Shown piece after piece: positions 31,723 to 38,040 of a stretch of DNA of 48,448 bases. Within the stretch, counting starts at the first letter, position 1. The number at the start of each line of letters is the position of its first letter. The stretch covers positions 1 through 48,448 of the forward strand of contig JAOABU010000100.1 in the NCBI GenBank assembly GCA_026418195.1, given 5' to 3'. The notes beneath the pieces were generated by a model. That model did no database searches. It saw only the letters and a program-made list of their open reading frames with translations, and was not told the origin of the DNA. The translations under genes and the position numbers were made by a program. The DNA is from Spirochaetota bacterium (GTDB taxonomy: Bacteria > Spirochaetota > Spirochaetia > DTKZ01).

Positions 31723-33054
31723 TTATATAAAGATAGACATAATCATCACTGCCATGATGCCGACGATCCCTTCTACCAAGGTGGCACTGGTATAGATTTT
31801 ATAGGCCACTGAAACTTCCATGTTACTAAACTGGGAGACCACCCAGAAGTAGGAATCGTTGGCGTGAGATACTACCATGGAACCCGCACCGATGGCGATG
31901 ACTGTGAGGGCCGGATCCAATCCCAGGGTACCGAGGAGGGGTGCCATAATCGCCGAGGTTGTGATGATGGCCACGGTGGAGGAGCCCTGAGCGGTCTTTA
32001 ACGCTGCAGCAATGATGAAAGGCATCAACATCCCCAGGTGCATTCCAGAAAGGTTAGCCTTGATGAACTCCACCATGGGGGACTGCTGTAGAATTCGCCC
32101 GAAGGAGCCTCCTGCAGCTGTAATGACAAGGATAATGGCGGCATCCCGAATTCCGTGTCCCATCCATTCATGGTAGGCTGTTCGGAGGGAGTGCTTTGGC
32201 ACAAGGAATAGACTCAAGATAACACCGATCATGAGGGCAGTTACCGGGTCCCCGATAAAACTGATGAATGCCGCAAATCCACCCCCTCCAAAGGGTTTTG
32301 TAGGAAACTCAGCAATGGATTTCAGAAGGATCAACACGATGGGGACTACGAGGGGAAGAAAGGACATAACTGTGTTCGGGAGTTTTCCCTGTTGTTTAAT
32401 GAGTTCCTCGTAGGAAGTTTCAATGTCTGCTTCGATCCAGTATTTCTGGGCAACTTTTTTAGCCCAAAGATACCCAGCGATCATAGCGGGGACAGCTGCT
32501 ATCATCCCAAGCAGGATCACCAGTCCCAGATCCGCTTTTAACGCACCCGCAGCCGCTATAGGACCAGGTGTAGGGGGTACCATGGTATGGGTGGCATATA
32601 AACCTGTAGACAGAGCTACAGCCATTACAGCCATCGATGTCTTTGTTTCTTTAGCCAATGCTTTATTCAACGGTGTTAGGATGACATATCCTGAGTCACA
32701 AAAAACAGGGATGGACACCACGTAACCTGCAATGCTCATGGCGAACGCCGATCTATCTCGACCTACTACCTTTAGGATCGCCTGTGTCATGGATAGAGCA
32801 GCCCCTGTCTTTTCTAGAATATACCCCATGATGGTACCGCACACGATCACGATACCGATGGCACCCAGCGTGTTACCGAAACCCGTTCGCACATGAGCAA
32901 CCACATCCTTCAAAGGCATCCCAATGGCGATCCCATAGAGAAAGGCCACACCAATGAGCACCACAAAGGCGTTCATCTTATATTTTGCTGTTAGAACAAT
33001 GATGACGATGACCGCCACCAATAAGAGAAACAATGCGAGTCCACCTGAGACCAT
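31723..33054 (-). CDS. GntP-family gluconate/carboxylate:H+ symporter
   Basis: The 443-residue product has about twelve to fourteen transmembrane helices. GntP-family signatures are visible: FGNTLGAIGIVIVCGTIMGYILEKTGAAL near residue 65, SIPVFCDSGYVIL near 125, HTMVPPTPGPIAAAGAL near 165, and the C-terminal TAQGSSTVAIITTSAIM with SHANDSYFW. It imports gluconate or a related sugar acid. The start at 33054 has GGAGG five bases upstream; the frame is open 6 codons further. The SDR remnant near 1088 is also of sugar-acid type, but far away and not functional. Confidence 0.92.
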   Translation of the reverse strand: MVSGGLALFLLLVAVIVIIVLTAKYKMNAFVVLIGVAFLYGIAIGMPLKDVVAHVRTGFGNTLGAIGIVIVCGTIMGYILEKTGAALSMTQAILKVVGRDRSAFAMSIAGYVVSIPVFCDSGYVILTPLNKALAKETKTSMAVMAVALSTGLYATHTMVPPTPGPIAAAGALKADLGLVILLGMIAAVPAMIAGYLWAKKVAQKYWIEADIETSYEELIKQQGKLPNTVMSFLPLVVPIVLILLKSIAEFPTKPFGGGGFAAFISFIGDPVTALMIGVILSLFLVPKHSLRTAYHEWMGHGIRDAAIILVITAAGGSFGRILQQSPMVEFIKANLSGMHLGMLMPFIIAAALKTAQGSSTVAIITTSAIMAPLLGTLGLDPALTVIAIGAGSMVVSHANDSYFWVVSQFSNMEVSVAYKIYTSATLVEGIVGIMAVMIMSIFI

Positions 33055-33086
33055 AGATACCTCCATAAACAATAGTTAGTTGTAGT

Positions 33087-33202: not shown

Positions 33203-33231
33203 TTGACAATAGTAAAAATCCATCGTATAGT
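33203..33231 (+). promoter_or_regulatory. Strong sigma-70-type promoter of the pyrimidine leader
   Basis: TTGACA (33203-33208), a 17-bp spacer and TATAGT (33226-33231): the best match to consensus in the window. Transcription should begin near 33238, about 234 nt before the UMP synthase start codon. Confidence 0.85.
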
Positions 33232-33237
33232 CGATGA

Positions 33238-33386
33238 AACTATGAATGCAATGCACCCTGATTTCATAGGTAATGGGAAGGTGAAAGCAAAAAGGGGTGC
33301 AATTTTTTCCAGGAAAACCTTTCCTGGGGTACTGATTTTCCCGGGTGCATTTTCAAGAGGAGCCATGAAAGGCTCCTCTTTTTTTA
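33238..33386 (+). ncRNA. Structured leader RNA/attenuator of the UMP synthase gene
   Basis: The leader has these parts. Hairpin P1: CTATGAA (33240-33246) with TTCATAG (33263-33269). Its 16-base loop holds AATGCACCC (33250-33258). That strand can pair with GGGGTGCA (33294-33301; seven Watson-Crick pairs plus one G-U), making a pseudoknot, or with GGGTGCATT (33343-33351; nine perfect pairs). Between the two partners are a run of six T (33303-33308) and hairpin CCAGGAAA/TTTCCTGG (33309-33327). The second partner ends just before the terminator. I do not recognise a known riboswitch, and see no PyrR-binding consensus. It may act as a cis attenuator or release a short RNA of about 150 nt. Confidence 0.6.
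33355..33385 (+). terminator. Intrinsic terminator inside the pyrimidine leader
   Basis: AAGAGGAGCC (33355-33364) pairs with GGCTCCTCTT (33371-33380) across a 6-base loop, and a run of seven T follows the G/C stem. It lies 87 bp before the UMP synthase start codon, so it must be bypassed for expression from the upstream promoter. Confidence 0.92.
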
Positions 33387-33414
33387 TACTCACCAGTGTA
33401 ACTCTCCTTTCACG

Positions 33415-33432
33415 ATCCATCTTCGGATGGAT
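33415..33432 (+). promoter_or_regulatory. Stable UUCG-capped hairpin before the UMP synthase gene
   Basis: ATCCATC (33415-33421), TTCG loop, GATGGAT (33426-33432): a 7-bp stem closed by C-G with a UUCG tetraloop. No T-run follows, so it is not a terminator. It may mark the mRNA 5' end, protect the transcript or impede scanning structures around the ribosome site. Confidence 0.5.
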
Positions 33433-33471
33433 GTATTCTCACGTATTCTTAATAATCAAGGAGCAGATGCT

Positions 33472-34887
33472 ATGTCCCAAACGAACCTAATCCTAGACCT
33501 AGAAAATGCGGGCGCGGTAAAGTTCGGAAACTTCGTGCTGAAAAGTGGAAAAGTAAGCCCCTTTTACTTCGATCTTCGGGATATTGTGTCAAAACCAGAG
33601 ATTTTCCAACGGATGGTAGATTTGCTGGTAGAGAAAGTACGACCAATGGAGTTCGATGTGGTAACAGGCATCCCTTACACTGCCCTTCCCTATGCAGCTG
33701 TGGTTGCCCAACGGTTAGGGAAACCCCTTATCTACTGTCGAAAGGAGGAAAAATCCTATGGACTTGGAGGCAGCATCGTAGGGAGTTATCGGAAGGGAGA
33801 TAGGTGTTTGGTGATAGACGATCTCATCACCACCGGGGAAAGTAAACTTGAGACTGCTGAGGCTTTCGAGTCGGCAGGACTTGTCGTAAAGGACTTTGTT
33901 GTGTTCATAGACCGAAGCCTTAAGGCCAAAGAGGTGCTAGGTTCCCGTGGGTATCGACTCCATAGTTTGGTGAACCTAGAAGAAATCCTCACTACCCTTC
34001 TTTCCCATGGGAAAATCACTGCTCATCAGGCAGAACAGGCCCGAACCTTTACCCGAAACCTGGAAGCCAGCCAAGCAGACACCCGAGTAAAGAACCCCTT
34101 TGCCGACAAGCTTTCCGAACTGATGTATCGGAAACAGACAAATCTAATTTTAAGCCTTGACGCTACAAACAAAGCTGACTTTTTCCGCATCCTGGAAGCT
34201 ACAGCGTCCGAGATTGCCATGGTGAAGGTCCATGTAGATATTCTAGAGGACTTCGATCCCACCTTCCCGGTTCGACTCTCTGCTCTCGCCGAGGAGGAAG
34301 ATTTCTACATTATGGCGGATAGAAAGTTCGCCGACATTGGGAACACTGCTCGGATGCAGTACCGAGGCGGTATCTACCGGATTGCGGATTGGGCCGATGC
34401 GGTGACTGTTCACCTTATTTCAGGGGAAGACATCCTAAAAGGGTTGTTCGGAGATGCGGAAGGACGTTCCATTGGCAGCGCCTTCCTTCTTGCAAGAATG
34501 TCCTCCCGGAACAACCTGATCAATGAAGGGTATACTCGAAAGGTGATCGAAATCGGCCGGCAGTATCCTGCCTGGGTAGCCGGATACATCGGTCATGGGG
34601 AATCGTTAGAGGACTTGAAACGGTTCAGGGAAAAACTTCCCGAAGGCCAGCTACTTCTCATGCCGGGTGTGCAACTTCGAAAGGGAAAGGACGAACTCGG
34701 TCAGCAGTACATGACAGTAGAGGACGCGGTTATCGGTGGAGCAGATGGGATCATCGTGGGTCGAGGGATCTACGGTGCCCCGGACCCCGCTTCCAGCGCC
34801 AAGATCTACAGGGAAAAAGGCTGGGAAGCCATGGAAGCCCATCGGTCCCCTAAACTCGTACACTCTTCGATGGCGACGATCGCATAG
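33472..34887 (+). CDS. pyrEF: UMP synthase fusion: orotate phosphoribosyltransferase plus OMP decarboxylase
   Basis: One 471-residue chain carries the last two steps of UMP synthesis. Residues 1-~205 are the phosphoribosyltransferase, with FGNFVLKSGKVSPFYFDLR and the PRPP loop CLVIDDLITTGES. Residues ~220-471 are the decarboxylase, with the catalytic DRKFADIGNT (Asp-x-Lys-x-x-x-Asp) and the phosphate site DGIIVGRGIYG. The domain order is that of eukaryotic UMP synthase, and the decarboxylase is of the DRKFADIG group rather than the common bacterial one. AAGGAG eight bases before ATG 33472 sets the start; the frame is open to 33427 but that ATG lies inside the UUCG hairpin. Confidence 0.94.
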   Translation: MSQTNLILDLENAGAVKFGNFVLKSGKVSPFYFDLRDIVSKPEIFQRMVDLLVEKVRPMEFDVVTGIPYTALPYAAVVAQRLGKPLIYCRKEEKSYGLGGSIVGSYRKGDRCLVIDDLITTGESKLETAEAFESAGLVVKDFVVFIDRSLKAKEVLGSRGYRLHSLVNLEEILTTLLSHGKITAHQAEQARTFTRNLEASQADTRVKNPFADKLSELMYRKQTNLILSLDATNKADFFRILEATASEIAMVKVHVDILEDFDPTFPVRLSALAEEEDFYIMADRKFADIGNTARMQYRGGIYRIADWADAVTVHLISGEDILKGLFGDAEGRSIGSAFLLARMSSRNNLINEGYTRKVIEIGRQYPAWVAGYIGHGESLEDLKRFREKLPEGQLLLMPGVQLRKGKDELGQQYMTVEDAVIGGADGIIVGRGIYGAPDPASSAKIYREKGWEAMEAHRSPKLVHSSMATIA

Positions 34888-35895: not shown

Positions 35896-37383
35896 CTATT
35901 GTGTTCTCTGTTTCCTCTCCTTAATCACTGAATAGACAACGGATGCCACGGCAATAATCAGAAAGATTCCCGATACCGGTTTGGTAAGGAAGGGGAGGAA
36001 GTTTCCTTGGGTCATCATCAATCCCCGCCTGAGGTTCGTTTCCGCTATGGGCCCTAAAATGAATCCAAGAATCACGGGTGAAAGGGGGAATCCCCACTTT
36101 TCGAACACATAGCCGATCACTCCGAACAGCATCACCGACCAGGCATCGAATACACGGTTGTTCAGTCCATACGCTCCTACAACGCAGAACACAATGATAA
36201 TGGGAAGCATGATATGCTTTGGAATCTTAAGTAATCGAACGAAGAAGCGAATCCCAAAGTATTCCATCAACACCATGACGAAGTTCGCTACGATGAGGGC
36301 GGCAAAAATGCCATACACAATGTCACCCGACGTAGTGAAGAGAAGCGGGCCTGGCGAAAGACCATGAATCATGAGACCGCCCAATAGCATCGCGGTAACC
36401 GTGTCTCCGGGGATACCCATGGCAAGTAGGGGAACTAGCGCCCCTCCAATTGAAGCATTGTTCGCTGTTTCCGAGGCGACGACCCCATCTAGGATGCCCG
36501 TTCCAAACTTTTCCGGATGTTTGGACATTTTTTTTGCAGCGATATAGGAAAGGATATTGGAAGTTCCTCCACCGATTCCCGGCAGGATCCCAATTCCCGT
36601 TCCAATCAGGCTGGAGCGGATAAAGTTCCCCATCTGTTCCATGAACTCTTTTGCCGAGAAACCGAACCCTTTGATCTTATAGTTGGCGATATTCTCCAGT
36701 TTGATCTCCACATCCGATTCTGCGGTCTTTAAAATCTCTGTAATGGCGAATAATCCAACGAGAGCCGGAAGAAGATTAAATCCACCATCCAATTCCCTGA
36801 ACCCGAACGTAAAGCGTGGAAAAGCGTCTATCGGAGCAGTTCCAACGCAGGAAAGTAGGATCCCCACAATTCCGCTCATCAAACCCTTGATGGTAGAACC
36901 TGTGGAAAGACTCGCAATAAGGGTGAGAGAGAATATCGCGATGGAAAAATACTCGGGAGGTCCAAACTTCAAGGCGATATCTGCAAGAGGAGGTGCAATG
37001 AAGAATAGTACGAGGAAGCTGAACCAACCACCCAGGAAAGAATAGAAGATCCCCGCACCCAACGCTTTCCCTGCCTCTCCTTTCTGGGCCATCGGATACC
37101 CGTCGAAGGTGGTGGCGATGCTGGAAGGGGTTCCAGGAATTTTAATTAGGATGGCCGAAATGAGTCCTCCGGAAACTCCCCCGATGTATAAGCCGATCAA
37201 AAGGGCCATTCCCTGCACCGGATGCATTCCGAAGGTCACAGGTAGAAAGAGCGCTACAGCCATGGTGGCCGTTAATCCAGGAATGGCACCAAAAATGATT
37301 CCTACCCCTACTCCCAGGAAAATAAGGATTAGAGGTTTCAATGCCAGGATTTGAGAAAATCCCACATAGAACATTTCCAACAT
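35896..37383 (-). CDS. tctA: TTT transporter large membrane subunit (TctA)
   Basis: TctA is the large, about twelve-helix subunit of tripartite tricarboxylate transporters, which take up carboxylates with a periplasmic binding protein. The 495-residue product has the family signatures GVGVGIIFGAIPGLTATMAVAL near residue 25, GGLISAILIKIPGTPSSIATTFDGYPMAQKGEAGKALG near 70, and ILPGIGGGTSNILSYIAAKKMSK near 255. The ATG at 37383 has AGGAG six bases upstream; the frame's earlier TTG does not. It follows tctB by 9 bp and shares its sigma-54 promoter. It converges with the small Cys-rich gene. Confidence 0.95.
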   Translation of the reverse strand: MLEMFYVGFSQILALKPLILIFLGVGVGIIFGAIPGLTATMAVALFLPVTFGMHPVQGMALLIGLYIGGVSGGLISAILIKIPGTPSSIATTFDGYPMAQKGEAGKALGAGIFYSFLGGWFSFLVLFFIAPPLADIALKFGPPEYFSIAIFSLTLIASLSTGSTIKGLMSGIVGILLSCVGTAPIDAFPRFTFGFRELDGGFNLLPALVGLFAITEILKTAESDVEIKLENIANYKIKGFGFSAKEFMEQMGNFIRSSLIGTGIGILPGIGGGTSNILSYIAAKKMSKHPEKFGTGILDGVVASETANNASIGGALVPLLAMGIPGDTVTAMLLGGLMIHGLSPGPLLFTTSGDIVYGIFAALIVANFVMVLMEYFGIRFFVRLLKIPKHIMLPIIIVFCVVGAYGLNNRVFDAWSVMLFGVIGYVFEKWGFPLSPVILGFILGPIAETNLRRGLMMTQGNFLPFLTKPVSGIFLIIAVASVVYSVIKERKQRTQ

Positions 37384-37392
37384 ATTCAACTC

Positions 37393-37887
37393 CTAACCTA
37401 GAATTCCTGCAGGAAGAAAAAGCACAAACACTTTTACAAATAAGTAGTAGATAATGACCGAAGTCGAAACAGCAATGATTCCATAAAGAGGAAGATTCGG
37501 TTTTCTGCGGCTTAACACCCAGAATTGAAAAAACAAGTATAGAGCCGTTGTGATGAGGAATCCGATTGGTTCCAAAAAGATCAAATATAGGAGAATCAGC
37601 AGAAAGGTTAAGCGTACCCTCTGTTTTCGCTTTGCATCAGACTCTGTTTCTTGTTCAGATGTTACATCAACTTTAGAAGAATCATTGGGAGCGCTCAGTA
37701 CGGATTGAAGAATGAGGATGAGGCTTAAAATACCAAGTATCGTTGCGGCCAATTGAGGAACAAAGGAAGAACTTATTCGAGCTACCACCAGATGTTTGAT
37801 GGAAAGAGAAGCTATCCAGACCCCTATGGAGAATAATAAAAACCCAATCCCCAAGTAGAGATCTCGCTTTCTTGATTCTACACGCAT
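37393..37887 (-). CDS. tctB: TTT transporter small membrane subunit (TctB)
   Basis: The 164-residue product has four transmembrane segments in the TctB pattern: two near residues 11-28 and 40-62, then a charged loop (SSKVDVTSEQETESDAKRKQ), then two C-terminal segments. The start at 37887 is chosen because AGGAGG lies nine bases upstream and a sigma-54 promoter ends just before it. The frame stays open to 38040, but that extension would cross the promoter. It forms an operon with tctA. Confidence 0.88.
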   Translation of the reverse strand: MRVESRKRDLYLGIGFLLFSIGVWIASLSIKHLVVARISSSFVPQLAATILGILSLILILQSVLSAPNDSSKVDVTSEQETESDAKRKQRVRLTFLLILLYLIFLEPIGFLITTALYLFFQFWVLSRRKPNLPLYGIIAVSTSVIIYYLFVKVFVLFLPAGILG

Positions 37888-37911
37888 GTCCAAAATCCTC
37901 CTACAAAGCTT

Positions 37912-37929
37912 ATGCAAGATATATGCCAA
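37912..37929 (-). promoter_or_regulatory. Sigma-54 promoter of tctBA
   Basis: On the minus strand TTGGCATATATCTTGCAT holds the -24 GG and -12 GC dinucleotides exactly ten bases apart, close to the TGGCAC-N5-TTGCA consensus. The predicted start is near 37902, just before the tctB ribosome site. The sigma-54 activator gene lies next upstream. Confidence 0.8.
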
Positions 37930-38029
37930 TTTAAGCAAACTAATGTATCTCGTTAATTCCTCGAAAGATAGATCAACATACCTTCTCCACCGACACCTCT
38001 CCATGTGTTCACTTGGAACAGGGTTTTCA

Positions 38030-38040
38030 AAATGTTTCAA
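38030..38040 (+). promoter_or_regulatory. Putative activator-binding half-site for tctBA
   Basis: AAATGTTTCAA matches 10 of 11 bases of the AAATGTTTCAT arm found upstream of the activator gene. It lies about 100 bp upstream of the tctBA -24 element, a normal distance for a sigma-54 enhancer, and touches the activator stop codon. An inverted repeat TGTTC-N5-GAACA is nearby at 38006-38020. Confidence 0.45.

Follow-up and report, generated by a model that had tools for sequence, protein, structure and literature searches.

A putative ribosome-coupled attenuator, probably responsive to UTP, ahead of a spirochaete UMP synthase gene

Introduction

What kind of switch lies between the promoter and the UMP synthase gene of this spirochaete? 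The window analyzed here is a stretch of 48,448 nucleotides, and a sequence-only reading of it had placed ahead of that gene a riboswitch-like transcription attenuator, in which one strand of the leader, AATGCACCC, would choose between two partners under the control of a ligand or of coupling. For E. coli pyrBI and pyrE, it is established that ribosome-coupled sensing of UTP controls pyrimidine synthesis. We compared the leader with those of related genomes and with E. coli K-12 pyrL-pyrBI, which was read with the scripts used for the spirochaete leaders. The element is most likely not a ligand-binding riboswitch but a translated leader frame laid over a terminator. Judged from the sequence, it is probably a ribosome-coupled attenuator of the pyrBI/pyrE type that responds to scarce UTP.

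Results

A promoter and a strong terminator precede the UMP synthase gene

Positions 33203–33386 of the window hold a promoter, a U6 tract, an 8-bp hairpin and a strong intrinsic terminator, with the UMP synthase gene downstream (Table 1). The promoter is near consensus, as the sequence-only reading had it, and the T6 tract and 8-bp hairpin that it listed are both present. With a terminator ahead of the gene, the region does look like a transcription attenuator before UMP synthase. Promoters of three relatives (G001, G002 and G003) have identical hexamers and spacing, and their leader ATG likewise lies 10 nt from the −10 box. The UMP synthase gene is flanked by a GntP-family gluconate-type permease gene (31723–33072, minus strand) and by a probable TctA/TctB tricarboxylate transporter pair (35896–38040, minus strand; read from sequence), and no pyrimidine link was seen for either.

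Table 1. Features of the UMP synthase leader and gene, in window coordinates.
Feature	Positions	Strand	Description
Sigma-70-type promoter	33203–33231	+	TTGACA-17-TATAGT; 11/12 matches
Leader reading frame	33242–33490	+	82 codons, MNAMHPDFIGNGKVKAKRGAIFSRKTFPGVLIFPGAFSRGAMKGSSFF...; ATG 33242, 10 nt past the −10 box; TAA 33488–33490; open in all six leaders
Two-partner strand of the sequence-only reading, AATGCACCC	33250–33258	+	Probably codons; at most an auxiliary 5–7 bp helix to 33295–33301
U6 tract, candidate UTP-sensitive pause region	33303–33308	+	Inside the leader frame; kept in G001 and G002, reduced in G003
8-bp hairpin, candidate pause hairpin	33309–33327	+	CCAGGAAA/TTTCCTGG, arms 33309–33316/33320–33327; 8, 6, 8 and 8 of 8 pairs in the four genus members
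U4 tract, second candidate pause site	33336–33339	+	9–12 nt after the 8-bp hairpin; four U invariant in the genus members as aligned (U7 in G003)
Intrinsic terminator	33355–33385	+	Stem 33355–33364/33371–33380 (10 bp), loop of 6, T7; hairpin −17.7 kcal/mol; in-frame reading SRGAMKGSSFF
UMP synthase gene, controlled gene	33472–34887	+	Orotate phosphoribosyltransferase–OMP decarboxylase fusion, PyrE-PyrF order; TIGR00336 and TIGR01740 over cut-off

An open reading frame runs through the terminator

The sequence-only reading overlooked an open frame that takes up the whole leader and continues through the terminator. The frame that begins at the leader ATG crosses the terminator in frame and shares its last 19 nt with the start of the UMP synthase gene. 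In each of five relatives, G001 (locus L031), G002 (L033), G003 (L032), G005 (L005) and, at a greater distance, G009 (L051), a promoter is likewise followed by an ATG whose frame crosses that leader's own terminator. Together with the window's leader (G000), the ATG frame is open through the terminator in 6/6 spirochaete leaders, a sample of six in which G000–G002 are closely related. The G005 and G009 leaders are unrelated in sequence and peptide and have the layout in common. Shuffled leaders stayed open to the gene start (or to their own stop) with P of 0.03, 0.03, 0.007, 0.009, 0.14 and 0.13 for G000, G001, G002, G003, G005 and G009, respectively.

The four genus members (G000–G003) show the same relation of frame to gene at variable lengths. 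The distances from leader ATG to gene ATG are 230, 203, 296 and 227, each leaving a remainder of 2 on division by 3, and the overlaps of frame and gene measure 19, 19, 19 and 4 nt. When the columns of the alignment were shuffled, all four frames remained open in 5/5000 trials, the amino-acid similarity was at least that observed in 7/5000, and both occurred together in 0/5000. Coupling had been named as one possible means of control, and it is compatible with the conserved feature of these leaders, a frame that stays open across the terminator as in the known layout of pyrBI/pyrE attenuation.

The leader frame in the window's family probably starts without an untranslated leader. Its ATG lies 8–10 nt past the −10 box, which at the usual spacing between a −10 box and the start site would leave 2–4 nt of leader, pointing to a probably leaderless mRNA. 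No Shine-Dalgarno-like site precedes the leader ATG in the leaders of the family. This lack, and the position of the ATG inside a possible 7-bp hairpin in G000–G002, count against the attenuator reading. The predicted start site has no T run, and reiterative transcription of the pyrBI type is accordingly not expected.

The terminator is the predicted default

In partition-function calculations on the naked leader RNA, the 5′ arm of the terminator pairs within the terminator with P 0.991 and upstream with P 0.000. Over the six leaders P(terminator) is 0.991–0.996 and upstream pairing at most 0.001, as thermodynamic predictions only; E. coli pyrL-pyrBI, with its terminator within the leader frame and a U5 tract upstream, gives 0.999. 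Values of about 0.99 in all six leaders, as in E. coli pyrBI, make an RNA antiterminator unlikely. The leader as a whole is more stably folded than its shuffles (z −3.3), an advantage owed mostly to the terminator, and with the terminator removed z is only −1.4.

The longest T run is 6–7 in every leader, which is not above dinucleotide shuffles (P 0.09–0.75), so pausing at these tracts can be called plausible at most. The 8-bp hairpin followed by the U4 tract looks like a hairpin-stabilized pause. Because pausing in E. coli pyrL is reported to show no NusA response (PMC9291695), we offer this likeness as an idea only.

The mechanism that we infer, with UTP as the signal, polymerase pausing, translation of the leader and a leaderless start, would work as follows. 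Transcription would begin a few bases 5′ of the ATG at 33242, and a ribosome would load on the leader frame while the RNA is still emerging. When UTP is plentiful, RNA polymerase would cross the U-rich stretch fast, the ribosome would lag, the terminator at 33355–33385 would fold and the gene would be off. With scarce UTP, the polymerase would pause at 33303–33308 and 33336–33339, perhaps aided by the hairpin at 33309–33327. The ribosome would then catch up and translate into the terminator stem, the stem would be unable to fold, and the polymerase would read on with the gene switched on. UTP is the likely signal because the regulated gene makes UMP. The anatomy of the leader supports coupling only and would also suit a ribosome-coupled attenuator that senses another signal, such as GTP, general translation capacity or an amino acid. 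We consider this unlikely, since the leader peptides hold no runs of codons for one amino acid, no RNA antiterminator is predicted, and the target gene is a UMP-making one.

The competing-helix switch stays at chance level and lacks conservation

A riboswitch binding UMP, UTP, PRPP or orotate, with AATGCACCC choosing between a pseudoknot and a 9-bp duplex, would account for the complementary partners, which are indeed present. AATGCACCC forms a perfect 9-nt inverted repeat with GGGTGCATT (33343–33351), it has an alternative partner in GGGTGCA (33295–33301), and the 7-bp hairpin P1 (33240–33246/33263–33269) is present as well. The alternative helix, TGCAC(CC)/(GG)GTGCA at 5–7 bp, is kept in the four genus members (7, 7, 6 and 6 of 7 pairs, mostly unchanging pairs) and is present in the alignment fold. 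Competition between the partners as a switch did not hold up. A perfect inverted repeat of at least 9 occurs in 26/500 dinucleotide shuffles of 33240–33354 (about 5% by chance). The 9-bp pairing decays across the four genus members, with 9, 7, 7 and 5 of 9 pairs kept, and P1 is lost in G003.

Covariation was counted in an ungapped genus alignment (A3) that comprises only four alignable sequences. Of the helices counted, P1, the 7-bp helix, the 8-bp hairpin and the terminator show no double change in it, and the 9-bp helix shows one, a number reached by half of the shuffles. Covariation at both competing stems, on which the sequence-only reading had staked its switch, is therefore absent beyond shuffle level in the genus. 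Moreover, both partners of AATGCACCC lie clear of the terminator, and choosing between them therefore cannot open it. The G005 and G009 leaders do not share the sequence, and an Rfam search of the leader at gathering and relaxed thresholds gave nothing credible, in line with the earlier remark that the leader fits no familiar riboswitch. With the 9-bp duplex not conserved and the terminator arm paired locally in the predicted fold, we rejected the competing-helix switch, and a ligand-controlled version of it seems to us quite improbable.

The leader peptide is under weak selection

Within the genus the dN/dS of the leader peptide is 0.45–0.92 (ratio of computed values), which indicates weak selection and gives the peptide less weight than its translation. 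Such weak selection is as expected if translation, not the peptide, is what counts; it also makes the proof of coding weaker. An 82-codon frame and the partial similarity of the genus peptides could instead reflect a conserved small protein gene followed by an ordinary terminator, without regulation. This is very improbable, because the terminator lies inside the frame, the peptides of G000, G005 and G009 have no visible likeness, and a Pfam and NCBIfam search of the leader peptides gave nothing above cut-off. Protein-dependent antitermination or PyrR-type attenuation, whose layout also has a terminator ahead of a pyr gene, is just as improbable, given that PyrR was not found over cut-off in 13 genomes (G000 among them), that the Rfam search gave no PyrR element and that no antiterminator pairing is predicted, as the sequence-only reading had already judged of PyrR.

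The layout was found at few UMP synthase loci

A search for the layout covered 79 named UMP synthase loci with a gene start, from spirochaetes, Cloacimonadota, Neomarinimicrobiota, Bacteroidetes and others. Among these, only loci of the window's genus and of G009 (L031–L033, L051) had a leader frame that crosses a terminator with a clean T run; the hairpin of L049 is weak and its T tail poor. Chryseobacterium/Kaistella loci have terminators with no frame across them. In G004, of the window's family, the attenuator is seemingly absent, since the 133 bases read ahead of the gene hold a promoter only. Other Spirochaetia whose UMP synthase has the PyrF-PyrE order have no such attenuator leader.

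We also looked at other pyrimidine genes. No aspartate carbamoyltransferase was over cut-off in G000, G001, G002 and G005. The G000 matches examined were an ornithine carbamoyltransferase and a YgeW-like protein, and the dihydroorotase match was hydantoinase-like; pyrD-like genes (pyrK-pyrD in G001 and G002) were found, as was UMP synthase. The de novo pyrimidine pathway in these four genomes may be incomplete or may use unrecognized enzymes. In G001 and G002 (L157 2042–7615 and L158 1953–7424), pyrK-pyrD follows a complete branched-chain-type ABC transporter set on a common strand, and this transporter is possibly a pyrimidine or orotate-related importer. Upstream of carA in three genus members (L132–L134), inspection by eye found two tRNA-like genes, a terminator and an AT-rich Arg-box-like palindrome, and no attenuator. 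At one contig edge in G000 (L150, contig C66), AGATGTGTATAAGAGACAG resembles a Nextera transposase adapter that the assembly retained.

Discussion

Our searches of the open-licence literature found no description of ribosome-coupled UTP sensing in spirochaetes. To our knowledge, transcription-translation coupling has hardly been studied in these bacteria, and a spirochaete attenuator would be a natural test of it in that phylum. We put forward more tentatively, as a possibility slightly short of an even chance, that the window's element is a leaderless UTP-sensing attenuator outside the Proteobacteria, independent of enterobacterial pyrL, in which the ribosome passes on to the overlapping UMP synthase start. 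If true, control of transcription and of translation would be coupled in one element. A second lineage with both classic (G009) and probably leaderless forms would suggest that the design evolves readily.

Known attenuators resemble the spirochaete leader to different degrees. PyrR-dependent pyr attenuators share with it an intrinsic terminator before a pyrimidine gene; the spirochaete leader differs in having no PyrR, PyrR-binding element or antiterminator. Mycobacterial leaderless short-ORF attenuators of the polycysteine type (cited in PMC13236596) likewise have a leaderless regulatory upstream frame. They respond to cysteine through runs of cysteine codons, whereas the spirochaete leader has no codon run and its terminator would be covered directly.

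The E. coli systems are closer. UTP-sensitive attenuation operates at both pyrBI and pyrE (PMC4491880), and coupling across pyrL keeps the terminator from forming (PMC5021804). In E. coli rph-pyrE, as proposed here, orotate phosphoribosyltransferase is controlled and translation must reach the terminator; a deletion that brings the end of the rph frame just beyond the pyrE attenuator is believed to lift attenuation (PMC2784333). There the leader is a full gene (rph), whereas in the spirochaete it is a dedicated short frame. With pyrBI/PyrL the likeness extends to a terminator that is embedded in the leader frame and forms by default, a leader frame that stops close to where the pyr gene begins, and a U-rich tract upstream, which in the spirochaetes is a plausible pause region at most. 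The G009 leader is classic and pyrL-like, with AAGGG upstream of the ATG; it has 43 codons (44 in E. coli pyrL), an ATG 26 nt past the −10 box (~25 nt) and a stop 16 nt past the U tract (17 nt). The spirochaete element differs from pyrBI in its host, in its target, a PyrE-PyrF fusion, and in the reiterative transcription expected only of pyrBI. In the window's family it differs further in the short distance from −10 box to ATG, in the missing Shine-Dalgarno-like site and in a longer frame that overlaps its target gene.
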